From a virus: a DNA stretch of 48,233 nucleotides. This document shows positions 535 to 45,176 of this stretch, piece after piece (the stretch's first letter is position 1; each line of letters starts with the position of its first letter). The notes under the pieces are model-generated. The model saw only the letters and a program-made list of their open reading frames with translations, did no database searches and had not been told where the DNA came from. The position numbers and the translations under genes were made by a program. The stretch is from positions 1 through 48,233 of IMG/VR virus record IMGVR_UViG_3300046387_000975; one strand, given 5' to 3'.

Positions 535-776
535 TGCTATCAATTGGCACTATTTGTGGTCTTAAAACAGAATTCGAAGAAATTGTTGAATCTTTTAGTA
601 TGCCTAGCAACTATGGGTCTGATATAAATACACTTGAGTGGTTCGTTGAGAATGGTCATAGATCTAATTCTCTTCGCAGTGGTTATGAAAGAGCAAAAGA
701 AATAGCAGTCATAATCACGGAGGATTACTATGGAGCAAAAGAAACTGGAACCTGGGTCAGTACACAACGAAGCTGA
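534..776 (+). CDS. Hypothetical protein, 80 aa
   Basis: I do not recognise this protein. It starts on an ATG that overlaps the stop of the HAD gene (TAATG), which suggests translational coupling. It is soluble-looking, with no membrane segment or cysteine motif (one Cys near residue 8) and a mixed-charge middle (residues 25-65). Its last 47 bases overlap the start of the next gene in another frame, a long overlap for this genome. The C-terminal end may therefore be poorly constrained, or the gene may be less certain than its neighbours. Confidence 0.5.
   Translation: MLSIGTICGLKTEFEEIVESFSMPSNYGSDINTLEWFVENGHRSNSLRSGYERAKEIAVIITEDYYGAKETGTWVSTQRS
623..630 (+). promoter_or_regulatory. Possible T4-type late promoter box TATAAATA
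   Basis: There is an exact TATAAATA on the plus strand inside the preceding small gene. T4-type late promoters consist of only this -10 box. Transcription would start near 636, leaving a leader of about 95 bases before the EF-hand gene at 730. In an AT-rich genome, an internal match can occur by chance. Confidence 0.3.
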
Positions 777-1086
777 CTTAGATAAAGACGGTGTAGTTAC
801 TGATAAAGAGTTATTGGCTATGGAAAAGTTGCACGAAATTGAAAGAGCTGATAAATTAGCAGAACGACAAGATCGTAAACAAAAGCAACAGCGCTATATG
901 GCATGGACTGCTATATGGTCAATGGTAGCTTTTACTGCCGTTATTCTTAGTCCTATTATACCAGACACTAAATTAGAACTATTAGGTACGCTCTTAAGCA
1001 CATTCTATATTGCGCAAGCTGGCATTGTAGGTGCATTTATGGGCTTTGCTACTATTGCAGATAAAAACCAAACTAAATTAAAATAA
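730..1086 (+). CDS. EF-hand membrane protein, 118 aa
   Basis: Residues 16-27 form a complete 12-residue EF-hand loop, DLDKDGVVTDKE, with acidic residues at loop positions 1, 3, 5 and 10, Gly at 6 and Glu at 12, so calcium binding is plausible. A charged helix (residues 30-55) follows, then two hydrophobic segments at about 57-78 and 86-110, and a short basic tail. The topology suggests a small inner-membrane protein with a calcium-binding N-terminal domain. A good ribosome site (GGAGG) lies 8 bases before the ATG at 730. It overlaps the previous gene by 47 bases. The role is unknown; two membrane helices in a short protein also fit a holin, but nothing else at this locus points to lysis. Confidence 0.7.
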   Translation: MEQKKLEPGSVHNEADLDKDGVVTDKELLAMEKLHEIERADKLAERQDRKQKQQRYMAWTAIWSMVAFTAVILSPIIPDTKLELLGTLLSTFYIAQAGIVGAFMGFATIADKNQTKLK

Positions 1087-1102: not shown

Positions 1103-1876
1103 ATGAAAAATTTGGTATTTCAATACTATATTCCATATGAAATGGGCGATAGAGATTTAGGCGGAGTTGATTTACCAGATTGGGCTCAAGCAGGAAGAAG
1201 ATCAGCGCAGGCATATGCAAAGTATTGTGGTGCTGAATACGTTTTAGATCATACTAGATATTTTGAAGAATTAGATCCTCGTCTAGATTCAATAAAAATC
1301 ATATTTGATCCTAAATATGATGAATACGATCATATCCTTTCTGTTGACTTGGATATGCTTATGCATTCCCAAATAAAAGATAATATCTTCAATTTTGATA
1401 TTGGGGACGTAGCGATGGTGCACGAGCTAGGCGTTCACACTGGAACGCCCAGTGGATGGATGAGAAGAGTAATGGATGCGCCGCTATATCAAAGAGGAAT
1501 ACTTGCATACGGTAAACATATATTTGGAAAAGATTGGATGTTTCCAAAATCAAAACTTTATCCCGATGAAAGATTTAGATATCTAAATGGCGGTTTGCAA
1601 TTATGGTCACGTGAAGGAAGACAAAAGGCTAGAAAACACTTTACTTCAGTTGATCACTACGTATTGCATACAAGATATACCGAACAAATGTATATTAACT
1701 TACAGCTTTCACAACCAATATTTAACGTTGTAGAATTAGATACATATTGGAATAGAATGCCGTATCAATGGAAAAATAGTAAACCTGATGGCAAAATCAA
1801 TCATTTTCTTGCCCGTACTAAATTTACTATGCCTAAACTTGAAAAAACGGAGATGAGTATATGGGACAATTCCTAG
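1103..1876 (+). CDS. GT-A-fold glycosyltransferase-like protein, 257 aa
   Basis: The N-terminal strand MKNLVFQYY, a central hydrophobic strand ending in the DxD-type motif VDLDML (D82, D84), and a later NGGLQLWS turn (near residue 170) are features of the nucleotide-sugar transferase GT-A fold. In that fold DxD holds the metal and the sugar nucleotide. It resembles the proteins at 2785 and 3463 in its start (MKN/SKN plus I/V and a YDxYDHxxxVDxD block), so these look like paralogues. It is the first gene of an apparent operon of sugar and methyl transferases. The ribosome site is weak (GAAAG). Donor and acceptor are unknown. Confidence 0.65.
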   Translation: MKNLVFQYYIPYEMGDRDLGGVDLPDWAQAGRRSAQAYAKYCGAEYVLDHTRYFEELDPRLDSIKIIFDPKYDEYDHILSVDLDMLMHSQIKDNIFNFDIGDVAMVHELGVHTGTPSGWMRRVMDAPLYQRGILAYGKHIFGKDWMFPKSKLYPDERFRYLNGGLQLWSREGRQKARKHFTSVDHYVLHTRYTEQMYINLQLSQPIFNVVELDTYWNRMPYQWKNSKPDGKINHFLARTKFTMPKLEKTEMSIWDNS

Positions 1877-2460
1877 AAATTGCTGCAGAAAAAACTAGAG
1901 GCTTAAATTGGACTTCAGCAAATATTGCATCACATAGCGGTGTCGATAAAGTTGACTTTAGAGATCTTCCTACTAAGTATAAAGAAAATTCATTTGATGG
2001 AATTTACTCAGAACATTTTATTGAACATGTATACAAATATCAAGGGATTAATTATTTTAAAGAATGCTATAGAATTTTAAAGCCACATGGTACTATTCGT
2101 ACAGTTTGGCCTCCAAATGAGTTCGTTAATAAGCTAGTTAGTGATGAACCTCTAACCGAACAAGAAGAAAACTTTTGTAAATCATATCATCAATTCTATG
2201 TTGTTAAGCATAAATTCGCTGCAGCTGGAAATAGTCATAGAAGTATACGTGAGCAATGCGCACTTGGCTTGCTTTATCAAAATGGCCAGCATCTTTATCT
2301 TTGGGGTATTCAAGAGATGATAGATACTCTTAAATCTTTAGGATTTAAGAATGTAAAACAGCACAAGTATATGGACAGCCGTGTATTAGAATTCAAAAGC
2401 ATCGATACTCCCGGTGTAATTCGTGCTTTACACTCTGCAGTTGTTGAAGCTACAAAATGA
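1861..2460 (+). CDS. SAM-dependent methyltransferase (Methyltransf_11 type), 199 aa
   Basis: The middle of the protein carries the post-motif blocks of small class I methyltransferases: an acidic residue before DLP (near 36), the FDGIYSEHFIEHV block (near 50), and the ILKPHGTIR strand-turn (near 75). The usual glycine-rich motif I is degenerate (LEIAAE near residue 5), so the SAM pocket is compact or altered. It overlaps the upstream transferase gene by 16 bases, with a GGAG site inside that gene, so it should be translated with it. The methyl acceptor is probably a sugar or small metabolite, judging by neighbours only. Confidence 0.7.
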   Translation: MGQFLEIAAEKTRGLNWTSANIASHSGVDKVDFRDLPTKYKENSFDGIYSEHFIEHVYKYQGINYFKECYRILKPHGTIRTVWPPNEFVNKLVSDEPLTEQEENFCKSYHQFYVVKHKFAAAGNSHRSIREQCALGLLYQNGQHLYLWGIQEMIDTLKSLGFKNVKQHKYMDSRVLEFKSIDTPGVIRALHSAVVEATK

Positions 2461-2792
2461 AAATTTTACTTAAATTTGATGGTAGACAGCAGATGTTTCA
2501 TTACTATTGGCTACCTCTTATATACAAGCATACTGAATGCACATTTTTTGTAGAAGATAAAAGTGGTAAATTGATTACACCTAATGGAATAAAAAACCTA
2601 AAAGTTATATCTAACTTTAAATCATTAAATGTAAATGATGCTAAGCTTTGTTACATAGATGAAATTCCTACTTATAAAACTATGGCTAATTTTAATCATA
2701 ACACTTTTTATAAAGTTTATTCAACGCCGAAGGAAACGCCTATTGGCAAAATCGAAATTGCAAATAAGAAGGGAACTATAGACTGTGTCTAA
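2457..2792 (+). CDS. Hypothetical protein, 111 aa, in sugar-modification operon
   Basis: I do not recognise this protein. It begins on ATGA overlapping the methyltransferase stop and ends overlapping the GTG of the next gene, so it sits firmly inside the operon. The sequence alternates short beta-like strands (KILLKFD, TFFVEDKSG) with a lysine-rich composition and no membrane segment. The start resembles the opening strand of GT-B or GT-A folds, but there is no DxD or other catalytic motif. At this length it could be an accessory subunit or a remnant of a larger transferase. Confidence 0.55.
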   Translation: MKILLKFDGRQQMFHYYWLPLIYKHTECTFFVEDKSGKLITPNGIKNLKVISNFKSLNVNDAKLCYIDEIPTYKTMANFNHNTFYKVYSTPKETPIGKIEIANKKGTIDCV

Positions 2793-3450
2793 GAATATTA
2801 TTCTACAGCATATGGATGGTAAACTGCGCGAATTAGATAAGCTTTCAGTTGAAAACATGCAAAGATACGCTGAGTTTGTAAAAGCAGATTATGAATTAAT
2901 ACGTGGTCGCCCTTTTAGAGAGCATTTAACAGGCGCTTGTCAAAAAATTTATATGTTAGACAAAAAATATGATAACTACGACCATGTGCTTATGGTTGAT
3001 ATTGATATGTTTGCCAGAAAAGGTATGATGACAAATGTATTTAAAGTACCTGGCATAGGCCTATATGCTGATGTACAAAAGTCTTTACATCGTAAAATGA
3101 TACCACACGGCGGAAGCCTTAACCATCCTTACTGGGGTGGAGCAATATATAAAATGAATTTAAAAACTAGGCAAACGCTTAGAGCCGGCTTAGGTGGTGA
3201 TGAATCTTGGATGGACAAATTTAACGAAGCATATAAATTTGAAGACGAAGGTATTATGCATATACTTGCTAAGATGTCAAATTTTAGACCGGATGAGCCA
3301 TATATGCATAGGAAATGGTGTCAGTGTTCTTTCTTACCTAATCCTGAAAAAGCGGGATTTATTCATGTTCGAACAAAAATAACACCTCAAGGGCCTAAAA
3401 GAGAAAAGATCGAGAATTATTATGATCTTACTCTTAAAGGAATAATATAA
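2785..3450 (+). CDS. GT-A-fold glycosyltransferase-like protein, 221 aa
   Basis: It starts with GTG, and the first residues (MSKNIILQH) match the opening strand of its paralogues at 1103 and 3463. A YDNYDHVLMVDIDMF block places the DxD motif at D72/D74. A small HPYWGGAIYKMN segment near residue 112 corresponds to the acceptor-side loop of GT-A enzymes. It overlaps the preceding stop by 8 bases. It probably transfers a sugar from an NDP-sugar; the target is unknown. An ATG start further in would remove the conserved first strand, so GTG is preferred. Confidence 0.65.
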   Translation: MSKNIILQHMDGKLRELDKLSVENMQRYAEFVKADYELIRGRPFREHLTGACQKIYMLDKKYDNYDHVLMVDIDMFARKGMMTNVFKVPGIGLYADVQKSLHRKMIPHGGSLNHPYWGGAIYKMNLKTRQTLRAGLGGDESWMDKFNEAYKFEDEGIMHILAKMSNFRPDEPYMHRKWCQCSFLPNPEKAGFIHVRTKITPQGPKREKIENYYDLTLKGII

Positions 3451-3462
3451 AGGAAACAAATT

Positions 3463-4341
3463 ATGAAAAATATTATATACCAATACTGGAAAGGCGATAT
3501 GAAGCCTGGTGTAGAATACAGCTGTAAGCTTATGAAAGAATATGCCGATCGTATTGGTGCTGAATACAAGTTTGATTTTAATAAAACGATTGCTGGTAAA
3601 GTAGTTGATGTTCCAATATATTATGAACCTGCCAATCCATTAGTTGATGAATCATTTGATGACTATGATAATGTTATGCTATGTGATGTTGATGTTTTTC
3701 CAACCGAAGGGTTATCAGATAATATTTTTGATCTATTAGATGGAGAAGATGCTGGTATATGTACGGAACCAAAGCAACCATACTTTAGAACAATATACAA
3801 CTCTGGTGGAATCAATAGTGTAATTGATAAAAAATGGGCTGAGGTTTGTAATAAACGATGGGGTGTAGAATATCCTGTAGATGATAAGCAAAGACCTGAA
3901 GTATTTAACACAGGAGTTGTTGTTATCTCTAAAGCAGGTCTTAAAAAAATGAAGACTGAATGGCCATCTTTCCAGGAATATGTAAATGAAGTAAACGGGT
4001 TTCCTAAATTCTATAGACTATTTCAAGACTACTTTTCAGCGTTTATTCATTTACCAGGATTTAAATTAAAAAGATTGCCAAATGAATGGAATTGTTATAT
4101 GCATAAGGTAGGCTCTCATCCTAATGCAACTATTGGCGATAATAGACCGGATAATGCTAAATTAGTTCATATTATGTTTCGTACTGCTGATGACTGGTCG
4201 ACTGATGTTCTTTGGAGAATAACAAATAAGCCAATTGCAGAATGGAATTTGCATTTACATAAAGAATGGCCTAATGATCCTCCTAAACAAGACAATAGTT
4301 TATTAAATCAGTTAAAGGATATTAATAATGCTAACAGCTAA
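3463..4341 (+). CDS. GT-A-fold glycosyltransferase-like protein, 292 aa
   Basis: This is the third paralogue of the set: MKNIIYQYW start, YDNVMLCDVDVF with DxD at D75/D77, and a later FNTGVVVIS strand near residue 148 that matches the conserved NTG-V element of GT8-like enzymes. It is preceded by AAGGA at good spacing (start 3463). Its last 14 bases overlap the next methyltransferase gene. Compared with its paralogues it has a longer C-terminal part containing tryptophan-rich segments. It is predicted to be cytoplasmic, with no signal or membrane segment. Substrate unknown. Confidence 0.65.
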   Translation: MKNIIYQYWKGDMKPGVEYSCKLMKEYADRIGAEYKFDFNKTIAGKVVDVPIYYEPANPLVDESFDDYDNVMLCDVDVFPTEGLSDNIFDLLDGEDAGICTEPKQPYFRTIYNSGGINSVIDKKWAEVCNKRWGVEYPVDDKQRPEVFNTGVVVISKAGLKKMKTEWPSFQEYVNEVNGFPKFYRLFQDYFSAFIHLPGFKLKRLPNEWNCYMHKVGSHPNATIGDNRPDNAKLVHIMFRTADDWSTDVLWRITNKPIAEWNLHLHKEWPNDPPKQDNSLLNQLKDINNANS

Positions 4342-4918
4342 AGTAGATAATGTAACATCTGTTGAAGAGTTTTACAGTGAAATCAGATCTCAACAAGAAG
4401 CCTTTCATGGTGACTACTATTGTGCAATGCATGATTCTATTAGAAAATGTATGAAAGATTGTAGCTCATATAAAGAATTAGGTACACATCAAGGTGGAAG
4501 TGCTGCGGCAGTCATGACAGGTAAGTATAAACCAAAGTATATGGAATTAATTGATATTGATCATGTCAAATATAGAGCTAAACTTAAATCATTAGCAGAA
4601 CCTTATTGTAAAAGCCATGGCATTGAATTAGTAGTTCGTGAAGCAGATTCTGGCAGCTTAAGTTCTATGTCGACAAAAAATGTTGATATGCTTATGATAG
4701 ATTCGATTCATAAAAGATATCACATGGAAAAAGAGTTACAGATTCATGGACAAATGGTAAATAAGTATATTGTAGCTCATGACACTAGTATTGCGCAGTC
4801 AAGTAATTTAGTTGAGTTATATGAATGCTTACGAGACTTTTGTAATAATAATCCATCATGGAATATTATTGAGCGCGGCGTTGAAAATGTTGGCTACACG
4901 GTATTGAAAAAAAATTAA
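4328..4918 (+). CDS. Class I methyltransferase (Methyltransf_24 / cephalosporin-hydroxylase-like), 196 aa
   Basis: Motif I appears as ELGTHQGGSA (near residue 50), followed by an acidic strand end LIDIDH (near 75) and the family-typical block MLMIDSIHKRYHME (near 120), the 'DxxH' element of Methyltransf_24-like sugar O-methyltransferases. AAGGA sits 7-11 bases before the ATG, inside the end of the previous gene. The family often methylates sugar hydroxyls, which fits a neighbourhood of glycosyltransferases. The next gene's ATG directly follows this stop. Confidence 0.7.
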   Translation: MLTAKVDNVTSVEEFYSEIRSQQEAFHGDYYCAMHDSIRKCMKDCSSYKELGTHQGGSAAAVMTGKYKPKYMELIDIDHVKYRAKLKSLAEPYCKSHGIELVVREADSGSLSSMSTKNVDMLMIDSIHKRYHMEKELQIHGQMVNKYIVAHDTSIAQSSNLVELYECLRDFCNNNPSWNIIERGVENVGYTVLKKN

Positions 4919-5614
4919 ATGCTAGCTTCAATAATCACAATTCCAGACCATCCAGTATCTCAGAAAGCTGCTGCCATATGTATGGAATCAAGTGAGGTTG
5001 TTGGTAATCATTTTAAAATATATCAACATTCAGCTACTACACCTGATGATGTGGACGCAAAGATGAAAGAATATGGTTTAAAGTGGAATTATCCGTGGGA
5101 AGGCACTGTACTTGACTTTGCCACAGGTCTTAAAAAGTCTGCATATAGAACTGCTAACCAGAAGGCCAGGGTTGCATGTAGTGTGAGCCACTACACCCTG
5201 TGGCGATCAACGGCTTCTGGTTCACAGTCACACTTAATATTAGAACATGATTCTAAATTTACATCTAAATTTGATACATCTATAATAGATCGTACTAAGT
5301 TTTTGATATATGGTATCAACAATCCGATAGGTGCCACGAGAAAAGCTAGAGAGTTTAAAGAACTAGTTTCTAAATCTAATAAAGAAGTGACATATGTGCC
5401 GTGGATTGACGATATGTCTGTTCCTCAAGGTTTAGCCGGAAACTCAGCATATATAATTACACCTGAAGGAGCTAAGAAGATGCTTAAGCTAGTTGATGAA
5501 TTTGGATTATGGCCTAATGACGCTATTATGTGCCGACAGCTTATTCCTCAGCTTGGAGTGACTACTAAGTTTTATACTACAGTTCAAGGTACACCATCAA
5601 CAACGAGTGATTAA
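4919..5614 (+). CDS. Glycosyltransferase family 25-like (LPS-type), 231 aa
   Basis: The organisation matches GT25 enzymes, which add sugars to lipopolysaccharide or proteins. It has an N-terminal strand with a DHPVSQ loop, an ATTPDD element near residue 40, ACSVSHYTLW near 85 (the family's SH-LW helix), then LILEHDS (near 105) as the metal-site strand and an AYIITPEGAKKM helix near 175. It is a close paralogue of the next gene; both share the same landmarks in the same order. The ATG follows the upstream stop with no gap. Confidence 0.7.
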   Translation: MLASIITIPDHPVSQKAAAICMESSEVVGNHFKIYQHSATTPDDVDAKMKEYGLKWNYPWEGTVLDFATGLKKSAYRTANQKARVACSVSHYTLWRSTASGSQSHLILEHDSKFTSKFDTSIIDRTKFLIYGINNPIGATRKAREFKELVSKSNKEVTYVPWIDDMSVPQGLAGNSAYIITPEGAKKMLKLVDEFGLWPNDAIMCRQLIPQLGVTTKFYTTVQGTPSTTSD

Positions 5615-5615
5615 A

Positions 5616-6266
5616 ATGAAAGCCTTTGTTATTGCAATTGAAGACCATGCTAAGTCTCAACAAGTAGCAGATAGATGTATTAAGTCGGCATCACGATTTG
5701 ATATTAAAGTAGAAAAATGGAAAGCTACTACACCACATGATATGCCAATCGATAAATTATTAACAGAAAATGTTAACATTGCTGGCTTACATGAAACATA
5801 TTCTCGCATTGCTAATTGCGCTGCAGCATTTCATTCACATTTTTCTATTTGGAAAAATGTAGTAGAAACTCAAGAAATGCATATGATTTTCGAGCATGAC
5901 GCAGTTGTCATAAATGATATTCCCAAAACAATTCAATTCGATAAAGTATTATCTATTGGTGCACCATCATATGGTAAGTTTAATACACCTAGTGTATTAG
6001 GCGTTGGACCACTAGTATCTAAAGGATATTTTCCTGGAGCACATGGTTATCTGATAAAGCCAGAAGGTGCTAAGTTACTAATAAAACAGGCACAAGAAAT
6101 TGCAAGACCTACAGATGTATTCTTAAATAAAAATACATTTCCATGGCTACAGGAATATTATCCATGGCCAGTAGAAGCTCGTGATAGTTTTACTACTATT
6201 CAGAATGTAAATGGTTGTTATGCAAAGCATACTTATGGAGAAGCGTATCGTGTCGAAGAAGTATAA
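5616..6266 (+). CDS. Glycosyltransferase family 25-like, 216 aa (tandem paralogue)
   Basis: It shares landmarks with the gene just upstream: DHAKSQ near the start, KATTPHD near residue 39, NCAAAFHSHFSIW near 70, MIFEHDA near 93 and GYLIKPEGAKLL near 145. A tandem duplication followed by divergence is the simplest explanation. I chose ATG 5616, one base after the upstream stop, rather than GTG 5607: it aligns with the paralogue's first residue and has a GAG eight bases upstream. The active-site aspartate of the EHD block is kept, so both copies are probably active. Confidence 0.7.
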   Translation: MKAFVIAIEDHAKSQQVADRCIKSASRFDIKVEKWKATTPHDMPIDKLLTENVNIAGLHETYSRIANCAAAFHSHFSIWKNVVETQEMHMIFEHDAVVINDIPKTIQFDKVLSIGAPSYGKFNTPSVLGVGPLVSKGYFPGAHGYLIKPEGAKLLIKQAQEIARPTDVFLNKNTFPWLQEYYPWPVEARDSFTTIQNVNGCYAKHTYGEAYRVEEV

Positions 6267-6897
6267 CCAAGCATTCTTAACTGGCTGCGATGAAAATAAT
6301 GCCTGGATGCTTCCATGGTTTGTGGAAAACTATAAGAAACATAATTCAACTCCTTTAGTTTTTGCTAATTTTGGTGTAAGTCAAAACACATTAAAATATA
6401 TAAAAAATAATTTTCATGCTGTTATTGATATGAGTAAAACAAAAGAAAGAGGCTGGTTTAAAAAGCCAAGAGCGATGTTATACTCACCTTCGATTAAGAC
6501 TGTATGGCTTGATACTGATTGTCAAATTTGTGATAATATTGAATCAGTATTTAATTTACTTAAACCTAATAAGCTAGCAATGGTTGAAGATAAGCCATGG
6601 ACAAAACGGCGGCAAGAAGTATGGCACAATTCAGGCGTAGTGGGAATTATAGATAAGCCTATAATACTTCATCAATGGTGTCAAGAAGTGCACGATAACC
6701 CGAACGTAGGTGATCAAGAAGTGTTACATAATATGCTTAATCCTATTACAAAGTTAAGTCATATCGAAGATTTACCAAACGAATATAATGTCCTTCGGAT
6801 ACAAGTTGAGTTAGATGGATATACAGGTAAAAAGAAGATTGTACATTGGACTGGAGCTAAAGGTAAGGATAAGATTAGGAGTATGATGAATGTCTAA
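6250..6897 (+). CDS. GT8-like glycosyltransferase, 215 aa
   Basis: The core shows LTGCDENN at the start, a long helix, a VWLDTDCQI strand with DxD at about D88/D90, and a HNSGVVGI segment near residue 142 typical of GT8-like folds. A C-terminal VHWTGAKGKDK contributes a histidine and lysine that commonly contact the sugar nucleotide phosphates. A GGAGAAG ribosome site 6 bases before GTG 6250 decides this start; the upstream in-frame ATGs (6211, 6220, 6235) have no such site. It overlaps the preceding gene by 17 bases. Target unknown. Confidence 0.65.
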   Translation: MSKKYNQAFLTGCDENNAWMLPWFVENYKKHNSTPLVFANFGVSQNTLKYIKNNFHAVIDMSKTKERGWFKKPRAMLYSPSIKTVWLDTDCQICDNIESVFNLLKPNKLAMVEDKPWTKRRQEVWHNSGVVGIIDKPIILHQWCQEVHDNPNVGDQEVLHNMLNPITKLSHIEDLPNEYNVLRIQVELDGYTGKKKIVHWTGAKGKDKIRSMMNV

Positions 6898-7498
6898 AGT
6901 TGTGCACATTGTTGGTAATGGTGATCAGGCCGTTTTATATCAGAAAGCCGAAAGAAAAGGCCTAAAGATATGCTGTAATCTTCCACCCTTTGCTGTGCCT
7001 AACACATATGCATCGGTTATTGTGGACTTTAAATTTATGAAAGCAATGACTGAAGGTAGTATTGTATTGCCTGGTGATTGGATTCTAGGAATGCGTCCTA
7101 AGATTTGGATGGATAAGCATCCTAACTACTACACAAAAGTAGCACATCAAGTAAAAGAATTTTATACTCCTCTTCCTAAATATGCTGGTAACTATACTAA
7201 CTTTAACTGTGGTCATGTTGCCGTACATTATGCAGCAAGTAAGCTAAAGGCAGATAGGATTCACATGTATGGATTTGATTCTATCTTTGACTTTAACCTT
7301 AGAAGCTATTCAGACCTGGTACTTAATTCTGACAGAGAGAATATGAATAATCATAGACTGTCTAGTAATTGGAGACCAATTTGGACAGCGATGTTTAAGG
7401 AGTTTGAGAATACGGAATTTATTCTTCATCATGTACACGGTGACTTTAAGATTCCTATTTCAAAAAACGTAAGAGCACAAATTTATCCTAAAAAGTAA
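6890..7498 (+). CDS. Putative sialyltransferase/DUF115-like protein, 202 aa
   Basis: The opening VVHIVGNGDQ strand-loop, a mid-protein cysteine and NCGHVAVHYAASKL helix (near residue 105) followed by RIHMYGFDSI resemble the layout of small bacterial sialyltransferase-like and DUF115-like enzymes, where GNG binds the nucleotide and the 'YGFD' strand lies near the active site. This is a pattern judgement, not a firm family assignment. AGGAG lies 9 bases before the ATG, and the gene overlaps its neighbour by 8 bases. It is the last gene of the glycan operon; no hairpin terminator is visible after it. Confidence 0.45.
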   Translation: MSKVVHIVGNGDQAVLYQKAERKGLKICCNLPPFAVPNTYASVIVDFKFMKAMTEGSIVLPGDWILGMRPKIWMDKHPNYYTKVAHQVKEFYTPLPKYAGNYTNFNCGHVAVHYAASKLKADRIHMYGFDSIFDFNLRSYSDLVLNSDRENMNNHRLSSNWRPIWTAMFKEFENTEFILHHVHGDFKIPISKNVRAQIYPKK

Positions 7499-7752: not shown

Positions 7753-7955
7753 GCCATCCATCAGAAATTGTCAATACTAAAGGTCACTGGGCTGTTGGAA
7801 TAAAATGGCCAGTAATTGGTAGTAAAGGTGATAAATATTTAGTAGAGATGTTTGATTCCGGTTTTGATTGTAATTGCATTGCGTATCGCAAGTGTAAGCA
7901 CATTAAATCTGTAGAGGAGAGGTTCGATGATTGTAGTGAAGGGTGGACGGTCTAA
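7749..7955 (+). CDS. SWIM-type zinc-binding small protein, 68 aa
   Basis: Residues C41, C43, C49 and H51 form CxC-x5-CxH, the SWIM zinc-finger signature, in a protein that is little more than that domain plus a short beta-rich N-terminal half. SWIM domains bind DNA or protein partners. The 3' end overlaps the start of a SprT-like protease gene by 29 bases in another frame, so the two are co-translated. The domain assignment rests on ligand spacing alone and the function is unproven. Confidence 0.6.
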   Translation: MSHPSEIVNTKGHWAVGIKWPVIGSKGDKYLVEMFDSGFDCNCIAYRKCKHIKSVEERFDDCSEGWTV

Positions 7956-8331
7956 GCAACGTTCAACGATCTATAAGGCTGCTGAGTTTGCATGGGATTA
8001 TCTCATGCCAAGAATTAAAAATTGTGATATATGGATCGACTTAAATAAGATAGATGATGCACATGGATATTGTTTAAAGATTGATAAAAGAGAATTTGAA
8101 ATAGAAATCGATCGACGCTTAAAGGGCGATGATTTATTAACTACAGTTTTTCATGAAATGGTACATGTAAAACAAGGCGTTAGAAAAGAATGGGAATTTG
8201 ACGAAGTAAAGTATAGTACTCATGATGAATATTTAAATTTGCCATGGGAAGTGGAAGCTTACAAATTACAAGAGGAAATATTAGATGCCTATGTACGGCA
8301 GGATCGGAAAAAAGGCAGTCGATCAGACTGA
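7927..8331 (+). CDS. SprT-like zinc metalloprotease, 134 aa
   Basis: HEMVH at residues 76-80 is the HExxH zinc site, preceded by a hydrophobic TTVF run as in SprT/Spartan-like domains. A possible third ligand or structural acid lies in PWEVEAY (E108 or E110). There is no separate zinc-ribbon, so this is a minimal catalytic domain. The GAGGAG-like site before ATG 7927 lies inside the SWIM gene. The length is typical of phage HExxH proteins. Substrate unknown; cellular Spartan enzymes cut DNA-crosslinked proteins. Confidence 0.7.
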   Translation: MIVVKGGRSKQRSTIYKAAEFAWDYLMPRIKNCDIWIDLNKIDDAHGYCLKIDKREFEIEIDRRLKGDDLLTTVFHEMVHVKQGVRKEWEFDEVKYSTHDEYLNLPWEVEAYKLQEEILDAYVRQDRKKGSRSD

Positions 8332-9720: not shown

Positions 9721-9920
9721 TGCCCACACTAATCGAGATACAACAGGCGCTGCCTCTATATGCACAGCTCCTCTTTTATGCAGTAGCTGGCGCGCTTGTT
9801 GTAGGTACCTTCTTTTCAATTGTTGGATTTATGTTTAGACATGCTCTTGCGATTATTGCTATAGCTACTATATGGTTTATAATGAAATATGGGAGTGAAT
9901 TAACTTTATTGGTTCCGTAG
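9720..9920 (+). CDS. Small membrane protein, 66 aa, ending inside tRNA-Arg
   Basis: There are two hydrophobic spans at about residues 13-35 and 40-62, linked by a short FRH turn, so it is probably a hairpin in the inner membrane. The last codons (GTT CCG TAG) are the first ten bases of the tRNA-Arg gene, and the stop codon is T8-A9-G10 of the tRNA. Function unknown; size and topology also suit a small holin-like or antiholin-like protein, without other support. Confidence 0.55.
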   Translation: MPTLIEIQQALPLYAQLLFYAVAGALVVGTFFSIVGFMFRHALAIIAIATIWFIMKYGSELTLLVP

Positions 9921-9987
9921 CTCAGCTGGATAGAGCAACTGACTTCTAATCAGTAGGTCGGGGGTTCGAGTCCTCCCGGAATCGCCA
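9911..9987 (+). tRNA. tRNA-Arg (anticodon UCU)
   Basis: A full cloverleaf can be drawn: acceptor GGTTCCG/CGGAATC (one G-T pair), D arm GCTC/GAGC, anticodon arm ACTGA-CTTCTAA-TCAGT giving UCU, TTCGAGT T-loop, discriminator G (9984) and encoded CCA (9985-9987). It reads AGA, a codon common in this AT-rich genome. The upstream membrane-protein gene overlaps its first ten bases. Confidence 0.95.
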
Positions 9988-9989
9988 AT

Positions 9990-10074
9990 GCCCCTGTGAT
10001 GGAATGGTAGACATAACGGACTTAAAATCCGTGGGCCTTAGGCCGTGCGAGTTCGAGTCTCGCTGGGGGCACCA
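9990..10074 (+). tRNA. tRNA-Leu (anticodon UAA)
   Basis: A class II tRNA with a long variable arm (GGGCCTTAGGCC). Acceptor GCCCCTG/TGGGGGC, anticodon loop CTTAAAA giving UAA, T-loop TTCGAGT, discriminator A and encoded CCA. It reads UUA, a frequent codon in the structural genes here. It lies two bases after the tRNA-Arg CCA, so the two are probably cut from one transcript. Confidence 0.94.
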
Positions 10075-10092
10075 AAAATTTAGGAGAGGTCG

Positions 10093-10227
10093 ATGAAAAC
10101 GAAGGCAGATCGTATACATAAAAGTAAGACAGCTCGTAAAAAAAGAAAAGAAATCAAAGAAATAGTTTTTAAGCGAACTGTTAACTTTTTTTCTAAGATG
10201 AGAAGAAAAAGACGGAGAATCTCATGA
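10093..10227 (+). CDS. Small highly basic protein, 44 aa
   Basis: The start ATG 10093 has GGAGAGG 6 bases upstream and the gene ends in ATGA overlap with the next. About half of the residues are Lys or Arg (KTARKKRKEIKE, then MRRKRRRIS), so it probably binds nucleic acid or an acidic partner. It lies between two tRNA genes. No known family. The clear ribosome site and the start-stop coupling make a real gene more likely than not. Confidence 0.55.
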   Translation: MKTKADRIHKSKTARKKRKEIKEIVFKRTVNFFSKMRRKRRRIS

Positions 10228-10415
10228 TTGTATTAGCATTTGTTTCTGCACTTTGGTTTGCAGGTAACACGGAATTCGTAAAGACAACAGAAGCACAAAG
10301 AGAAGAAGGGTTTAGATGGCATCAGATTGAATGTCGCGATCGTAATCCTGATTTACCTGCTATTGTGATATCTACACCAACCGGTCGCGAGATCGTTTGT
10401 CATAAGCTGCAGTAG
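10224..10415 (+). CDS. Small secreted or membrane-anchored protein, 63 aa, ending inside tRNA-Thr
   Basis: A hydrophobic N-terminus (MIVLAFVSALWFAG) suggests a signal peptide or a single anchor; the rest is hydrophilic with two cysteines (near 37 and 59). CGGAG precedes the ATG, which overlaps the stop of the basic 44-residue gene. Its last codons CTG CAG TAG are the start of tRNA-Thr, with the stop codon again formed by tRNA positions 8-10. Function unknown. Confidence 0.55.
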   Translation: MIVLAFVSALWFAGNTEFVKTTEAQREEGFRWHQIECRDRNPDLPAIVISTPTGREIVCHKLQ

Positions 10416-10481
10416 CTCAGTTGGTAGAGCAGCTGATTTGTAATCAGCAGGTCCGCGGTTCGAGTCCGTGTTGCAGCACCA
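10406..10481 (+). tRNA. tRNA-Thr (anticodon UGU)
   Basis: Acceptor GCTGCAG/TTGCAGC, D arm GCTC/GAGC, anticodon stem GCTGA/TCAGC with loop TTTGTAA giving UGU, T arm CGCGG-TTCGAGT-CCGTG, discriminator A, encoded CCA to 10481. It reads ACA. The preceding protein gene ends at position 10 of this tRNA. Confidence 0.95.
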
Positions 10482-10485
10482 CATT

Positions 10486-10561
10486 TGGGATGTAGCTCAG
10501 TTGGTAGAGCAGGTGACTGTTAATCACCTTGTCGGGGGTTCGAGCCCCTCCATCCCAGCCA
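10486..10561 (+). tRNA. tRNA-Asn (anticodon GUU)
   Basis: Acceptor TGGGATG/CATCCCA, D arm GCTC/GAGC, anticodon stem GGTGA/TCACC with loop CTGTTAA giving GUU, T arm GGGGG-TTCGAGC-CCCTC, discriminator G and encoded CCA ending at 10561. It sits four bases after tRNA-Thr, so joint processing is likely. It is followed at once by a late-type promoter box. Confidence 0.95.
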
Positions 10562-14550: not shown

Positions 14551-15456
14551 ATGTCTTTTGCAAATCTAAAGCGTAATCGCGACCAAATCTCCAAACTAGT
14601 TCAAGCAGCAGAAGCCACCGGTGGTGGTGAAAAGAAGTCATATGACGATGAACGTATTTGGAAACCAACAGTAGATAAAGCCGGTAACGGTTATGCTGTT
14701 CTCCGTTTTCTTCCAGCATCTGAAGGTTCTGATCTTCCATGGGTTCGTTATTGGGACCATGGCTTTAAAGGTCCAACTGGTCTATGGTATATTGAAAACT
14801 CTCTTACTTCTATTGGTCAAGCAGATCCGGTTGGCGAGCTTAATTCTCGTCTGTGGAATTCTGGACATGAAGAAGATAAAGAAACTGCACGTAAACAAAA
14901 GCGTCGTCTACACTATGTAGTTAATGCTCTCGTTGTACAAGATCCTGGTAATCCACAGAATGAAGGTCGTGTAGTACTATATAAATTCGGTAAGAAGATC
15001 TTTGATAAGATTATGGATGTTATGCAGCCATCATTTGCCGATGAAACGCCTGTTAATCCTTTCGACTTTTGGGAAGGTGCAGACTTTAAATTGAAAATCC
15101 GTCAGGTTGAAGGATATCGTAATTATGATAAGTCAGAGTTTGCAAGCGCATCTGCTCTCTATGATGCAGAAGAATCCAAGTTGGAAGAAGTCTATAACCA
15201 ACTACATTCACTCAGTGAGTTTACCGAACCAAGTAACTACAAAAGCTACGATGACCTCAAAGCAAAACTAAGTCGAGTGTTGGGTGAAGATACAGTTGCA
15301 ATGGGTGCACCAACTATGGCACAGACCGTTCAAATGAATGAGCCGGCTCCTGCTCCCGCAGCTCCTGCACAAGCACCTGTTACTGCAGAACAAGTATCAT
15401 CTACGGATGATGATGACACAATGTCCTACTTTGCACGTCTTGCAAATGATGAATAG
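14551..15456 (+). CDS. 32: Single-stranded DNA-binding protein gp32, 301 aa
   Basis: It coats single-stranded DNA in replication, recombination and repair. The N-terminal basic segment LKRNRDQISKL is the cooperativity region. The core follows T4 gp32 closely: AVLRFLP near 50, HGFKGPTGLWYIE near 71, NALVVQDP near 131, NEGRVVLYKFGKKIFDKI near 142, and FWEGADFKLKIRQVEGYRNYDKSEF near 180-205. A proline/alanine linker leads to the acidic tail (SSTDDDDTMSYFARL) that contacts partner proteins. The protein has no cysteine at all, so the T4 zinc site (one His, three Cys) is absent; it is replaced by ELNSRLWNSGHEEDK. Length is the same as T4 (301). Confidence 0.95.
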   Translation: MSFANLKRNRDQISKLVQAAEATGGGEKKSYDDERIWKPTVDKAGNGYAVLRFLPASEGSDLPWVRYWDHGFKGPTGLWYIENSLTSIGQADPVGELNSRLWNSGHEEDKETARKQKRRLHYVVNALVVQDPGNPQNEGRVVLYKFGKKIFDKIMDVMQPSFADETPVNPFDFWEGADFKLKIRQVEGYRNYDKSEFASASALYDAEESKLEEVYNQLHSLSEFTEPSNYKSYDDLKAKLSRVLGEDTVAMGAPTMAQTVQMNEPAPAPAAPAQAPVTAEQVSSTDDDDTMSYFARLANDE

Positions 15457-17380: not shown

Positions 17381-17553
17381 TGTTGTGCAAGTCTTTCGTT
17401 TTGCTCTTTAATGTGATCGTTAAGTAGTATAATATAAATGTCCCTCTCCCAGGGTATCATAGTTTCTAAATCGTTCAATGAATAATTAAAATGTTGCATC
17501 ATTGTAAAATTAGTGCGATAATAGTTTTCTAGTGATTCATGTGAGAGGGCCAC
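17377..17553 (-). CDS. 51: gp51-like baseplate hub assembly protein, 58 aa
   Basis: On the minus strand a GTG at 17553 opens a 58-residue frame whose core NFTMMQHFNYSLNDLE followed by MIPWERDIYIILL is the hallmark of small gp51-like proteins I recall from marine T4-like phages, where they help assemble the baseplate hub. The GTG touches the gp26 stop (TAGTG) and the stop overlaps gp29 (ATGA), so all three are translated in a chain. In T4, gp51 is likewise next to gp26. Easily missed because it is so short and starts with GTG. Confidence 0.78.
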   Translation of the reverse strand: MALSHESLENYYRTNFTMMQHFNYSLNDLETMIPWERDIYIILLNDHIKEQNERLAQQ

Positions 17554-40979: not shown

Positions 40980-41444
40980 ATGATTAATCATACATTTGTA
41001 AATGCTAGATTTATTGATACTAAACATACAGTATGCGAAGCACTATGGAAAGATAATGATGACGACACGATCATTAGATCGGAAAACGTGTTACGTGAAG
41101 ATGGCAATACTCTATGGGAAAATTTATTAAAAGAAACTACTTTAGAGCAAATTCTTCGTAATACATTTGATTATAATAAAGGTGAAGAAGAAGCCTTTAA
41201 AAAAATGTTTAAGAAAATGTATGATAAAGAAGAAAGCCAACCTAAAAGCGATTCCTTAAGTTTTGAAAAATTATTATCTAATGATTTAAATCAAGAAGAA
41301 TTGTTTAAGTTAAAGATTCTAATATTTGAAAATGAAGCGATTAAAGAATCAAAAGATAGAAGTTTAAAGACAAAAATTAGAAAATCGAAGGATGTGTTGG
41401 AAATTATTAATCTGTATTATAATGCCACTCAAACTTCTTCGTAA
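40980..41444 (+). CDS. Hypothetical protein at the end of the fibre operon, 154 aa
   Basis: Not recognised. The N-terminal 45 residues are beta-like (FVNARFIDTKHTVCEALWKD), the rest is acidic and helical, with lysine/glutamate-rich stretches (EEEAFKKMFKKMYDKEES). It starts one base after the previous stop, so it is in the same operon. Its final 38 bases are also the end of the convergent glycosyltransferase gene on the minus strand. Could be a fibre chaperone by position and charge, a common place for one, but this is a guess. Confidence 0.55.
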   Translation: MINHTFVNARFIDTKHTVCEALWKDNDDDTIIRSENVLREDGNTLWENLLKETTLEQILRNTFDYNKGEEEAFKKMFKKMYDKEESQPKSDSLSFEKLLSNDLNQEELFKLKILIFENEAIKESKDRSLKTKIRKSKDVLEIINLYYNATQTSS

Positions 41445-42291
41445 TAAAGTGGGTCATTTTTCTTTCTAATTTTAAATACTCTTCTCGAGTTTCGGTTCTG
41501 TGATCTAGTATTTGGTGCCATGGACCATTAATATTTACCGCAGGAACTTCATTCTTTGCTAGCAAATATGAATATATTGGTTCATTATTATAGTCCATTG
41601 TTTCTTTAATGTTGTCTGTATACATACTATCAGGATCATTTTTAAATAAAGTAATATTATTTAGAATTTCTTCTAAGTTTTCAAAATAATTTAATTGTTG
41701 AATATGTTTTCTAGTTGCTCCAATAATTCCTGTATTTGTAATAGGAACTCGAGGACTCATAAAATCATAACTGCATAAAGCATGTGCAATAAAGTATTTG
41801 TTAATCATAGAGCGCAAATATAATTTTTGATTGCTCCAACTACTAATATACTTTAAGGCTTCTTCGTGATAATCTTCTAAGTGCACGTGTATGCCACTGT
41901 CTAAATTATGTACATCAAAAAAGTTTTCTTTCGTTTCAAAAAGAACATCAAAGTCTACGTATAAGACCTCATCATATTTTTCAGCTAATCTTTCCATTTT
42001 CCACAATTTATAGAAGTTAACTACATGATATTCGTTTTGTTCAGTACAATACGAATACATAAGATCTCTAAACTGTTTATAGTCATTTCCGTTAGTGTAA
42101 TGAAAGTAATCACAGCCCTGTAAATCAGCATACACTTGTTTGTTTTCTATTAAGCGTTCGCTATATTCATTCATTACTCGTTTTGTTTTGGTCGATCTAT
42201 CTTCAGGTTCCCAAGCCCAGTAAGGACCAAGTTGTTTATCTAGTTTCTCTTCTTCTAAATCAATATGGATGGAAAAAATAACTTGTTTCAT
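41407..42291 (-). CDS. GT-A-fold glycosyltransferase-like protein, 294 aa
   Basis: It opens MKQVIFSIHI and has the strand VLYVDFDVLF with DxD at D113/D115. An NTGIIGAT segment near residue 185 and HQILDH near 267 fit GT8/GT-A enzymes. The arrangement resembles the transferases at 1103, 2785 and 3463, suggesting a shared ancestor. It is the last gene of a five-gene minus-strand cassette and the base composition is even more AT-rich than its structural neighbours. Its 3' end overlaps the plus-strand hypothetical gene by 38 bases. Target unknown. Confidence 0.68.
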   Translation of the reverse strand: MKQVIFSIHIDLEEEKLDKQLGPYWAWEPEDRSTKTKRVMNEYSERLIENKQVYADLQGCDYFHYTNGNDYKQFRDLMYSYCTEQNEYHVVNFYKLWKMERLAEKYDEVLYVDFDVLFETKENFFDVHNLDSGIHVHLEDYHEEALKYISSWSNQKLYLRSMINKYFIAHALCSYDFMSPRVPITNTGIIGATRKHIQQLNYFENLEEILNNITLFKNDPDSMYTDNIKETMDYNNEPIYSYLLAKNEVPAVNINGPWHQILDHRTETREEYLKLERKMTHFITKKFEWHYNTD

Positions 42292-42926
42292 TTACCTATT
42301 ACCATAAATCTGTTAAAATCACCCAAATCTAATTTTAAAGTTTTTGCTACATACCATAGAGGAATATAACTTTCAAACTCTTCTTCGGTATTAGAGCAAT
42401 TTATATGAGTAGGGTGGTCAAAGTAATCGTTTGTTTGTAAACACAACCAACATTCTTTATTCTTCTTTGCTGCTAACTCAATCCAAAAATCTTTTTCGAT
42501 ATGTTCACACGAAGTAGAAATAATAGCACTATACTCAGAAAAGTTTAAATTATCTGTTGCATCTACTGTTTCAAAACTTATATCATAATCATAAAATAAT
42601 CTCCAAGCAAAATCTTCACATGTTGGATCTACGTCTATAGAAGTAATATTAAAAGTTTTGTTTGGAAATTCTTGTCTTAAAAAATATGAAAGTAAGCCGT
42701 ACCAACCTCCTATAATAAGAATATTGCCGTCAGTAAAGTTATTACCATTTTTAATAGATCTATAAAGAGGTGAAAAATGTTCTACTAGCCATTTTTTAGA
42801 ATCAATCTGTTTAGAATCTAAAGAATGAATAATGTCTTTAATGCGAAAAAAATCGTTTTTCTCGTACATTGTATTATCATATATTTCTTCAATTAATTTA
42901 AGACTTCTTTGTAAAATATGTTCCAT
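42288..42926 (-). CDS. SAM-dependent methyltransferase-like protein, 212 aa
   Basis: Motif I is ILIIGGWYGLLS (residues 69-80), with the acidic motif II strand SIDVDPTCED (97-106) and motif IV-like ISTSCEHIEKDFW (near 135). These are class I SAM-binding features; the E in SCEHI and later NDYFDHPTH residues could be catalytic. It lies between two glycosyltransferases, with a 4-base overlap to the following one and a 29-base overlap with the preceding one. The methyl acceptor may be a sugar or peptide. Confidence 0.68.
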   Translation of the reverse strand: MEHILQRSLKLIEEIYDNTMYEKNDFFRIKDIIHSLDSKQIDSKKWLVEHFSPLYRSIKNGNNFTDGNILIIGGWYGLLSYFLRQEFPNKTFNITSIDVDPTCEDFAWRLFYDYDISFETVDATDNLNFSEYSAIISTSCEHIEKDFWIELAAKKNKECWLCLQTNDYFDHPTHINCSNTEEEFESYIPLWYVAKTLKLDLGDFNRFMVIGK

Positions 42927-43494
42927 AATCTAATTCTTCGTAAGTTGTAATAGGTGCAATTTTATCTGGCTGGTATTTATATGACTGAATCATATTCGTA
43001 TTAAACGTATTATAATTAAATTCTTCGTGAACTATAAATCTGTCAATACCTTTGTACTTTCTCATAAAGTAATCTTTATTACTTAAAAAATAATTCCATA
43101 TATGTTTTTGTTCGTTGCCTATCCAAGTTATAACTTGGCTATTAATAGTTACATCATAGTTGTGATTTATGGGAATGTTATTTTTCCAATCGCAATTTAC
43201 AACAGTCAATCCATTCCACGTTAAATATTGAAGAGGATTACTATTAATTACAGTATCGATATCAAAAAATAAATTTTTACCCGGTAAATCTAAATCAAAT
43301 AAAGCTAGTTTATTCCACCATTTTTTAAGTACAGGCTTTGTTTTAATATTAATGTAAGGCATGCTTAAGTTAGAAGGATCTTCTGTATAACAATAATAAT
43401 TGGCATAAGGAATATGTTCCTTTAATTCATTGTACAGATTATTTACTTGTTTAGAAGTATATTTACTTCCATGTTTAACAAAGAGAATATTCAT
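42898..43494 (-). CDS. Glycosyltransferase-like protein, 198 aa
   Basis: A short GT-A-like protein: MNILFVKHG start, KPVLKKWWNKLALFD near residue 53-67 and the DxD strand LFFDIDTVIN (D78/D80). A C-terminal part with HEEFNYNTFNTNMI may bind the acceptor. Smaller than the other transferases here, it may lack part of the acceptor lobe. It starts four bases after the kinase-like gene ends, and its last 29 bases overlap the methyltransferase start. Substrate unknown. Confidence 0.62.
   Translation of the reverse strand: MNILFVKHGSKYTSKQVNNLYNELKEHIPYANYYCYTEDPSNLSMPYINIKTKPVLKKWWNKLALFDLDLPGKNLFFDIDTVINSNPLQYLTWNGLTVVNCDWKNNIPINHNYDVTINSQVITWIGNEQKHIWNYFLSNKDYFMRKYKGIDRFIVHEEFNYNTFNTNMIQSYKYQPDKIAPITTYEELDYGTYFTKKS
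42974..42981 (-). promoter_or_regulatory. Possible late promoter box inside a glycosyltransferase gene
   Basis: Exact TATAAATA on the minus strand, 47 bases before the methyltransferase start (42926), inside the upstream gene. It could give extra late transcription of the last two cassette genes, or be a chance match. Confidence 0.3.
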
Positions 43495-43498
43495 CGAT

Positions 43499-44026
43499 TT
43501 ACTCTAAATGTATACAATGATTATGGAATTGTGTAATAAGAGTTCCGTATAAAGAAATAGAACTAAACTTCCTAATGGGATTTAGTCTAACAGAATCTAT
43601 ATCAATTGCCTTAAAATCTCCTGATTCAGTAACTATTATGTTAGTTAAATTTAAATCTTCATGAAACATAATCTTTCCTTGCTTTGAAAGTTCAATGTTG
43701 TATTCTAAAAAATTTCCAATTAAATCATGACATTTTTTTATGTAATGCATTACTTCACTATATTCTTGATTTTGTTTAGACATAGCTTGAAGAACTAGTT
43801 CTTGCAGCAAGGATCCTTCGATTTTTTCCATGACACAGGTATGAATTCCATCTTTTATGTTCATTTCGTAGATTTCCGGAAGTATATTATATTTAGAATT
43901 AAAATCATCATAATACAGCAGCCAGCTAGGATCTAGTATGCTGTGTCTGATAAACTTGTATTTTTTAATTATTGTATTACCATTATCATACACTTCACAA
44001 TCTTTGCCACTTTTAATTAATTTCAT
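43499..44026 (-). CDS. Protein-kinase-like phosphotransferase, 175 aa
   Basis: The catalytic loop FHEDLNLTNIIV carries H122, D124 and N129 (HxDxxxxN), followed by AIDIDSV with D142/D144 in the place of the DFG metal site. A TIIKKYKF strand near 18-25 could supply the ATP-binding lysine, and CVMEKIEG is the hinge. This is the compact kinase fold of LPS-sugar kinases and aminoglycoside-phosphotransferase-like proteins, much reduced (175 residues). It overlaps the radical SAM gene by 14 bases. It may phosphorylate a sugar or a peptide; which is unknown. Confidence 0.72.
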   Translation of the reverse strand: MKLIKSGKDCEVYDNGNTIIKKYKFIRHSILDPSWLLYYDDFNSKYNILPEIYEMNIKDGIHTCVMEKIEGSLLQELVLQAMSKQNQEYSEVMHYIKKCHDLIGNFLEYNIELSKQGKIMFHEDLNLTNIIVTESGDFKAIDIDSVRLNPIRKFSSISLYGTLITQFHNHCIHLE

Positions 44027-45176
44027 TAAACCACTCTTTTTCTATGTCTTTCAACTTAGGAACAATATCAAATAATTTAAAACCTCGGTAATCATCTATA
44101 CCAAATAGTCGCATAAGTACTTGAGATTTTATTACAGCATCAGGCTCTTCATATTCCAAATTATAGATTACATCTAAATCTATTTTATCTTCATTACCAT
44201 ATTTAATAAAGTATTCGTTTAATTTATCTTCCAACATTTCATAAGGTATATACTTGGGATTACATGCTAAGGGATGCAACACTTTGTTGTTAAGAGTAAT
44301 CCACCTTACATATTCTTTATCTTTAAAATAATCAATGATGTCGTCAAGATTAAAAAAGTTATAAATTGAGACACATGTATTGATTGTAATTTTTACGTTT
44401 GTTTCTTTATAAAACTTTTCCATAGTAGAAATAGTTTTTTCCCAAGGACTACTTCTAATCCAATGGTATAATTTATTAGTGCCGTCTATACTTGCTGACA
44501 TTTCTAATCTATCACCAAATCTTTTAAGTATTTCCATAAACTTATCAGGTATGGTTTGAAAGTTAGATACAATAACAACTGTACAGCGATTGTTAACTTG
44601 TGATAGTTTATCTAGTAACATAATATTATTTTTATCAGCAAATGGTTCTCCGCCCTTTAATTCAAATCTATCCAAGCTAGGCATTGCTTCAATAATTTTA
44701 TTTAAATTATCGTCAGTTAATTTAATAATAGGCATTACCGATTGGCCAAGATGTTTAGCAAGTTCATTCCATTTAGAGCTTAACCCAGGAAAACAAGTAG
44801 AACAATTTTGATTACATATGTTACTTGAAGTTACTTCTAAAGCTCTTATAGGAGCTTTTTTACCTTCAAGCATCAATTTTCTATCACGAATTAAGTTAGG
44901 TGAATGTATTTTATTTTTTACAACTATTCTATGGGAATCTTCATCTGGTTCATTTTGACAGTCACGACAATTTTTACCGTTTCTCCAAGCGTCTGACTGA
45001 AACATTTCTCTATATTGCTCGAATTCTTCAGTGTTGTAGTAATCTGTAAGATTATCTACTTCATTAATAGATGCAAGAGGGAAATCACCAGACATACAGC
45101 AAAGAGCAATATTTCCTCGAGGGTTAACAACAAACCCCATATATGGAGCCTTACACAAATTTTTTTCGTCAAACAT
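44013..45176 (-). CDS. Radical SAM protein with N-terminal twitch/SPASM-like domain, 387 aa
   Basis: Cysteines C121, C125 and C128 (CNQNCSTC) form the CxxxCxxC site for the SAM-cleaving iron-sulfur cluster; GGEP (175-178) follows. Residues 1-75 hold C8, C26, C27, C70 and C73 in a SPASM/twitch arrangement (CKAP, GNIALCC, NCRDC), placed before the core, while in most SPASM enzymes it comes after. I recall such 'N-terminal twitch' proteins from phage and metagenomes without known substrate. SPASM/twitch enzymes usually modify peptides. It is the first gene of the minus-strand cassette; no ribosome site is obvious. Confidence 0.82.
   Translation of the reverse strand: MFDEKNLCKAPYMGFVVNPRGNIALCCMSGDFPLASINEVDNLTDYYNTEEFEQYREMFQSDAWRNGKNCRDCQNEPDEDSHRIVVKNKIHSPNLIRDRKLMLEGKKAPIRALEVTSSNICNQNCSTCFPGLSSKWNELAKHLGQSVMPIIKLTDDNLNKIIEAMPSLDRFELKGGEPFADKNNIMLLDKLSQVNNRCTVVIVSNFQTIPDKFMEILKRFGDRLEMSASIDGTNKLYHWIRSSPWEKTISTMEKFYKETNVKITINTCVSIYNFFNLDDIIDYFKDKEYVRWITLNNKVLHPLACNPKYIPYEMLEDKLNEYFIKYGNEDKIDLDVIYNLEYEEPDAVIKSQVLMRLFGIDDYRGFKLFDIVPKLKDIEKEWFNEIN

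Follow-up and report, generated by a model that had tools for sequence, protein, structure and literature searches.

Fixed glycosyltransferase core and exchangeable upstream genes in a putative glycan operon of uncultured marine T4-like phages

Glycosyltransferases of marine phages are usually listed as auxiliary genes that modify lipopolysaccharide (LPS) or are assumed to act on DNA. The closest described systems are the host recognition cluster of pelagimyophages (PMC7029224) and the LPS clusters of cyanophages P-SSM2, S-SSM7 and S-SM2 (PMC2984593, PMC3037559), found in marine T4-like myoviruses and comprising many GT8-type and sugar-nucleotide genes. Here we analyzed a 48,233-base fragment (the window) of the IMG/VR record IMGVR_UViG_3300046387_000975, an uncultured marine virus, which harbors a ten-gene operon (A to J, positions 1103-7498) of predicted glycosyltransferases and methyltransferases. 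The operon falls among the known glycan and LPS clusters of marine T4-like phages, with their many glycosyltransferase and sugar-nucleotide genes, but differs from the pelagimyophage and cyanophage clusters in having a core of four genes in fixed order, at another locus, that is kept lineage-wide; a second, transferase-rich cassette in the window, positioned between tail-fibre-like genes, resembles the pelagimyophage cluster. To our knowledge, a fixed four-gene core joined to a swappable decoration set and uncoupled from DNA-base chemistry is new. We surmise, tentatively and with a confidence somewhat short of even, that these genes build a glycan on a virion protein, made in the cytoplasm, with a conserved core and a variable, methylated decoration.

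The division into core and decoration emerged from comparison of relatives. G has 338 relatives in IMG/VR and no match in the INPHARED phage collection. Among 137 fetched loci holding both G and J, which are partly redundant and do not represent 137 independent events, the order G-H-I-J was found in 135, and the span from G to J was below 3.2 kb in 129; the remaining two loci (L029, L071) have in the slot of I a transferase resembling c3 of the second cassette, although c3 showed no similarity to the I profile. The genes upstream of G vary between relatives, with cassettes of 3-11 genes wherever the left boundary is known and near-complete coding density. Pfam searches of 92 non-redundant proteins from this slot revealed several methyltransferase families, GT8, GT25, FkbM and sulfotransferases, together with epimerase/GDP-mannose dehydratase and HAD-NTP transferase families, and one cassette type includes a UDP-galactopyranose mutase. 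The glycan reading gains strength from the presence, in this slot, of genes for sugar-nucleotide enzymes, sulfotransferases and methyltransferases. In eight large relatives, core identity followed the identity of a backbone comprising capsid, portal, polymerase, primase and UvsX (Mantel r 0.76, with none of 5000 permutations as high), suggesting that the core is inherited with the virus. In addition, G/H and J were absent from three relatives at 60-63% capsid identity (two of 140-151 kb), and from one at 63% (70 kb), and present in a relative at 73%; the core is thus a marker of one lineage and not a general trait of marine phages of the T4 type.

We postulate that soluble transferases would assemble a sugar chain in the host cytoplasm, with G, H, I and J making a core glycan common to all these phages and the swappable upstream genes (A to F in the window) extending and O-methylating this core to yield a phage-specific structure. 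UDP-sugars would be used by G, H, I and A/D/E and a CMP-sugar by J, as in Maf enzymes, and the virion protein would be glycosylated before or during assembly. The data establish the enzyme folds, the order and conservation of the genes, and the independence of the core from base chemistry; we infer that it is the conserved part of the glycan on which the conserved genes act, and likewise which donor J uses and which acceptor receives the chain. As acceptor, a virion protein is most likely, with the host LPS core as the main rival; we rank it first because the core is kept lineage-wide with the structural genes, a fold relative of J glycosylates protein, and there are phage and chlorovirus precedents (PMC12619734, PMC7826918).

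The ten open reading frames (ORFs) all overlap or closely abut, with spacings from A to J of -16, -4, -8, +12, -14, 0, -8, -56 and -8 nt, and the operon lies on the deoxyribonucleotidase to gp32 side. Nine plus-strand ORFs of at least 190 residues occur in this segment vs. none in 200 mononucleotide shuffles; these ORFs are not due to chance. A, D and E are paralogues (A-E 2e-10, D-E 2e-10, A-D 3e-8) in a family where the DxD motif and a C-terminal His are invariant in 33 relatives; the family profile matched the GT8-like domain of WbbM (4e-6), LARGE1 (0.002) and also XXYLT1, and Pfam GT8 matched 10 of the 33 aligned members, with no direct Pfam match for the window copies. G and H, likewise paralogous (7e-12), scored 37.7 and 41.6 bits against PF01755 (gathering score 24) and belong to GT25, with transferase activity predicted. 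The profile of I matched glycogenin at 1.6e-4 and was homologous to A/D/E (hhalign 95%, profile vs. profile); Pfam GT8 was found in 17 of 23 relatives (best 9.5e-5), the window copy itself being without a match at 0.05, and DTD and HWTGxKG, invariant or nearly so among relatives, correspond to the DxD and C-terminal H-x-x-G-x-K of GT8. As the N-termini of I relatives are not conserved, I probably starts at a position within the ORF as annotated. B exceeded the Methyltransf_11 cut-off and F had only sub-threshold methyltransferase matches, whereas C, with 111 residues, has three relatives and a low-confidence model built from four sequences; A, B and C co-occur in the three loci listed for C in Table 1. 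Accordingly, the preliminary description of a ten-gene, nearly all overlapping operon with three DxD paralogues and a tandem GT25-like pair is borne out by the ORF coordinates, spacings and shuffle control and by pairwise E-values and alignments, and its enzyme classes agree with our family, profile, paralogy and fold matches.

For J (202 residues), the AlphaFold model had a predicted local distance difference test score (pLDDT) of 90.7, and structural comparison gave as top match the Maf glycosyltransferase 5mu5 (Z 11.2 over 167 residues), with CstII 1ro7 (Z 10.3 over 180 residues) and GT29 sialyltransferases (Z about 8) also matched; with Foldseek the best hit, ST3Gal1, was marginal (E 0.013). 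Judged from this model, J shares the Maf/GT42/GT29 fold over most of its domain. J had been called sialyltransferase-like, which holds for the fold but not for the sequence, where the sole family hit, to MptE-like/Maf_flag10 (PF01973), was sub-threshold (9 of 31 members, best 0.0013) and no match of note was found among PDB sequences. The MptE-like/Maf_flag10 family covers the central domain of Maf, a domain similar to CstII; for the O-glycosylation of Ser/Thr, Maf enzymes use CMP-Neu5Ac or CMP-Kdo as donor (PMC11339370). The likeness to Maf makes a CMP-Kdo donor plausible and a Ser/Thr acceptor possible for J, but J is only the size of the central domain, has no flagellin and shares about 10% identity with Maf. 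Altogether, the modeled fold plausibly points to a CMP-sugar donor, either CMP-Kdo or a nonulosonic acid. J has at least 571 relatives in IMG/VR and one among INPHARED phages, in phage C48C1; in genome contigs it was found only in five contigs from metagenome-assembled genomes (MAGs) of unrelated phyla. UDP-sugars are the donors of GT8 and GT25 enzymes, whereas J, judged by its fold, would take a CMP-sugar; donor mixtures of this sort are normal in glycan pathways, so a shared donor class is an uninformative test of whether these enzymes form one pathway.

Table 1. Predicted genes of the ten-gene operon (A to J) and of the second cassette (c1 to c5), with window coordinates. SAM, S-adenosylmethionine; GT, glycosyltransferase.
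Gene	Prediction	Position	Strand	Basis and remarks
A	GT-A glycosyltransferase, GT8-like, DxD; variable part	1103..1876	+	D/E paralogue; family profile matches WbbM, LARGE1
B	SAM methyltransferase; variable part	1861..2460	+	Methyltransf_11 9e-8, above cut-off
C	Small protein without known function	2457..2792	+	Relatives in L064, L077, L081 only; AlphaFold2 pLDDT 65
D	GT-A glycosyltransferase, GT8-like, DxD; variable part; GTG start	2785..3450	+	A/E paralogue, profile
E	GT-A glycosyltransferase, GT8-like, DxD; variable part	3463..4341	+	A/D paralogue, profile, Pfam GT8 in family members
F	Probable O-methyltransferase; variable part	4328..4918	+	Sub-threshold Methyltransf_24 0.0013, RMNT_CmcI 0.003
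G	GT25 glycosyltransferase; invariant core, first gene	4919..5614	+	PF01755 above cut-off
H	GT25 glycosyltransferase; invariant core	5607..6266	+	PF01755 above cut-off; fixed order
I	GT8-like glycosyltransferase (DTD, HWTGxKG); invariant core	6211..6897	+	Glycogenin profile match, Pfam GT8 in relatives
J	Maf/GT42/GT29-fold transferase; invariant core, last gene	6890..7498	+	AlphaFold2 model, structural comparison
c1	GT-A transferase homologous to A/D/E	41407..42291	-	hhalign probability 94.7% vs. A/D/E alignment
c2	Methyltransferase-like by eye	42288..42926	-	No family hit; recurs beside c1/c3 in relatives
c3	Phage glycosyltransferase	42898..43494	-	phrog_1962 glycosyltransferase 4e-11
c4	Kinase-like by eye	43499..44026	-	No Pfam hit
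c5	Radical SAM/SPASM protein	44013..45176	-	PF04055 2e-8, PF13186 3e-6, above cut-offs

Recognizing that T4 glucosylates hydroxymethylcytosine with gp42 and the alpha- and beta-glucosyltransferases, and that this T4-like lineage also has sugar transferases, with gp42 and alpha-glucosyltransferase (AGT) in some relatives, we considered whether the operon adds to modified DNA bases an oligosaccharide larger than that of T4. Phages with multi-sugar DNA are known, and the variability of the cassettes would be in keeping with a contest between phages and restriction systems. A dCMP hydroxymethylase with 50-52% identity to T4 gp42 is present in the interval between primase and uvsX in G001, G006 and G010 (the G010 contig ends shortly after). 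However, this enzyme does not accompany the core in every genome, and the contents of the interval differ among core-bearing relatives: 1) G003, G004, G008 and G020, in which no PF00303 enzyme was found despite the usual primase-uvsX interval, and which all have the whole core; 2) G005, with a thymidylate synthase (TS)-like and an asparagine-synthase-like protein in this interval; 3) G008, with 7-deazaguanine-type genes, of which FolE exceeds its cut-off, QueE is matched in part, and the QueD-like and DpdA-like ones are named by eye. All of these relatives carry G-H-I-J; their backgrounds share no hydroxymethylated base, suggesting that the transferase set is not dedicated to such bases. Moreover, G006 has its own T4-type AGT above cut-off beside the hydroxymethylase, and in sequence searches the core is unrelated to the alpha- and beta-glucosyltransferases. 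We rejected DNA base glucosylation as the leading idea on account of the gp42-negative, core-positive relatives, and DNA hypermodification more generally appears highly improbable. Among the targets named in the preliminary description (DNA, virion or host surface), DNA is thus the least likely, and its statement that the sugar chemistry exceeds the needs of base glucosylation is supported.

The primase-uvsX interval of relatives (e.g. L086, L097, L105, L115, L213) appears as a swap slot for base-modification and sugar-nucleotide systems, with contents that include gp42 with or without AGT, the TS-like plus asparagine-synthase-like pair, FolE/QueE/DpdA-like genes, and UDP-glucose dehydrogenase with KdsA/KdsB-like genes. 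The divergent TS-like protein at L097:16476-17264 shares, by eye, the Asp that hydroxymethylases carry at the corresponding position; an asparagine-synthase-like protein comes next, and the pair possibly carries out an undescribed base modification.

As for sugar supply, KdsA was found above the NCBIfam equivalog cut-off in G005 and G006 and as the Pfam family PF00793 in G004; in G004 and G005 it adjoins a KdsB-like enzyme for which KdsB models are the best match, below their cut-offs. UDP-glucose dehydrogenase-like and epimerase-like genes also occur in the primase-uvsX interval of several relatives, and these genes together fit CMP-Kdo and UDP-uronic acid donors. A hydropathy scan predicted no membrane helices in the ten operon proteins, and GtrA, Wzy/WaaL (PF04932), the initiating transferase (PF02397) and Wzx (PF01943) were found in none of 12 large relatives, the completeness of whose records is unproven. 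Gtr-type O-antigen seroconversion was rejected in view of the missing GtrA and transmembrane helices, as was a Wzx/Wzy export-type polysaccharide pathway, with no components in the 12 relatives. What is left is a cytoplasmic acceptor, which could be a protein or, on the inner side of the membrane, the LPS core.

The second of these would amount to host envelope remodeling, with the operon extending or capping the LPS or lipooligosaccharide (LOS) core where it faces the cytoplasm at the inner membrane, and the altered surface excluding competing phages or grazers. Bacterial LOS outer-core sets comprise LgtB (GT25), LgtC (GT8) and CstII (GT42), and the operon has these same three transferase classes side by side, that of CstII by fold; the KdsA/KdsB-like genes would feed the LPS inner core, and export machinery would be unnecessary. 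A role of this type was inferred by the authors for pelagimyophage glycosyltransferases (PMC7029224) and for the 24 LPS genes of P-SSM2 (PMC2984593). Unlike the LOS sets, the operon is phage-borne, was not found as chromosomal genes, and is associated with extra methyltransferases and sulfotransferases. The strict vertical retention of the core, with a divergence about that of DNA polymerase, resembles an infection-essential trait more than optional exclusion, and given that the MAG contigs with J come from unrelated phyla, no single LPS acceptor stands out. We regard LPS remodeling, a close rival of the virion reading, as possible, if doubtful. Alternatively, these enzymes, all of them soluble, may modify a soluble host protein or RNA, or make a small-molecule product, for host takeover, in line with the proximity of the operon to middle-type genes such as gp32 and the lack of a late promoter directly upstream; this proposal leaves the variable upstream decoration vs. 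the fixed core unexplained and has no known precedent with such an enzyme set, and we judge it improbable.

Several points weigh against a glycosylated virion protein as well: 1) structural matches of J include MptE-type HPPK (Z 9.2) and thiamin pyrophosphokinases (Z about 8) too, so the fold alone leaves its function unfixed; 2) KdsA occurs in only three of the seven relatives with the primase-uvsX interval on the contig, and the window ends short of this interval, leaving the donor genes of this phage unseen; 3) the late promoter motif was not found directly before the operon, such that virion-stage timing is unsupported; 4) an acceptor protein or glycosite was not identified, and the Ser/Thr content of structural proteins singled out none; 5) soluble GT25, GT8 and Kdo enzymes take part in the synthesis of the LPS core as well, and hence host LPS would be compatible with the enzyme set taken by itself. 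With respect to timing, the motif TATAAATA precedes several baseplate and fibre genes and is not close before the operon; it is not enriched in the window (15 vs. about 35 expected), and relatives gave no consistent picture.

The second cassette had been proposed to be part of the same pathway. Enzyme families are indeed common to both, and the homology of c1 to A/D/E together with the c3-like gene in the I slot of two loci suggests that both cassettes draw on the same enzyme pool, but a common pathway is only possible. Relatives of c1, c2 and c3 recur together, often near a NodU-type carbamoyltransferase (G002, G004, G005, G009, G010). The G+C content, about 0.36 over most of the window, falls to 0.28 at 42001-44000, which suggests that this cassette was acquired recently. 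At 45637-48231, a long fibre-like gene in which LDSAETIALIDSAYVAAR-type units are repeated stays open as far as the window end, which cuts it.

The window itself is T4-like, with gp32 (14551-15456) and a T4 baseplate protein (17553-18281) above Pfam cut-offs. Judged by baseplate proteins, the named phage nearest to it is C48C1 (Kyanoviridae), at 43-46% identity, with Pelagibacter phage HTVC008M, Methylophilales phages and cyanophages next for the gp6 baseplate protein; in a megablast of the window against phages, tRNA-Asn was the sole matching part. Many relatives share with the window (730-1086) a small protein encoded immediately before the operon, which matches EF-hand weakly and is hydrophobic in its C-terminal half, and J is followed in many relatives by a HEMVH metallopeptidase-like protein (7927-8331; weak DUF6782 match). 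Four tRNA genes (Arg, Leu, Thr, Asn) are located at 9911-10561, and a tail lysozyme with a gp5 OB domain, then a gene with an Amidase_2-like domain, at 23245-26096.

A fuller version of the virion-protein reading, which we consider unlikely as a whole, would hold that uncultured marine T4-like phages, as a whole lineage, attach sugars to the proteins of their own virions with a Maf-like transferase. Its donor would be CMP-Kdo or a related acidic sugar made by the phage, and an invariant core oligosaccharide would bear exchangeable decorations of methylated, sulfated or furanose type, as a counterpart of the chlorovirus capsid glycan. Among phages, a precedent is the glycosylation of mycobacteriophage capsid and tail proteins by a phage-encoded system (Freeman et al. 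2023, as cited in PMC12619734), which involves another host group and other genes and is likened here by description, not sequence. Separating the fixed core from the decoration set and from the DNA-modification slot makes the glycosylation target testable with four genes. If the acceptor is indeed a virion protein, autonomous glycosylation of particles would also apply to an abundant lineage of ocean phages and would have a bearing on host recognition, decay and grazing. The capsid glycan of chlorovirus PBCV-1 contains methylated sugars. PBCV-1 is a eukaryotic virus with other transferases and a known acceptor, whereas the operon is known from genes alone; the two are nevertheless alike in that virus-encoded soluble transferases are predicted here, as established there, to build a core glycan common to all members and bearing variable decoration (PMC7826918).

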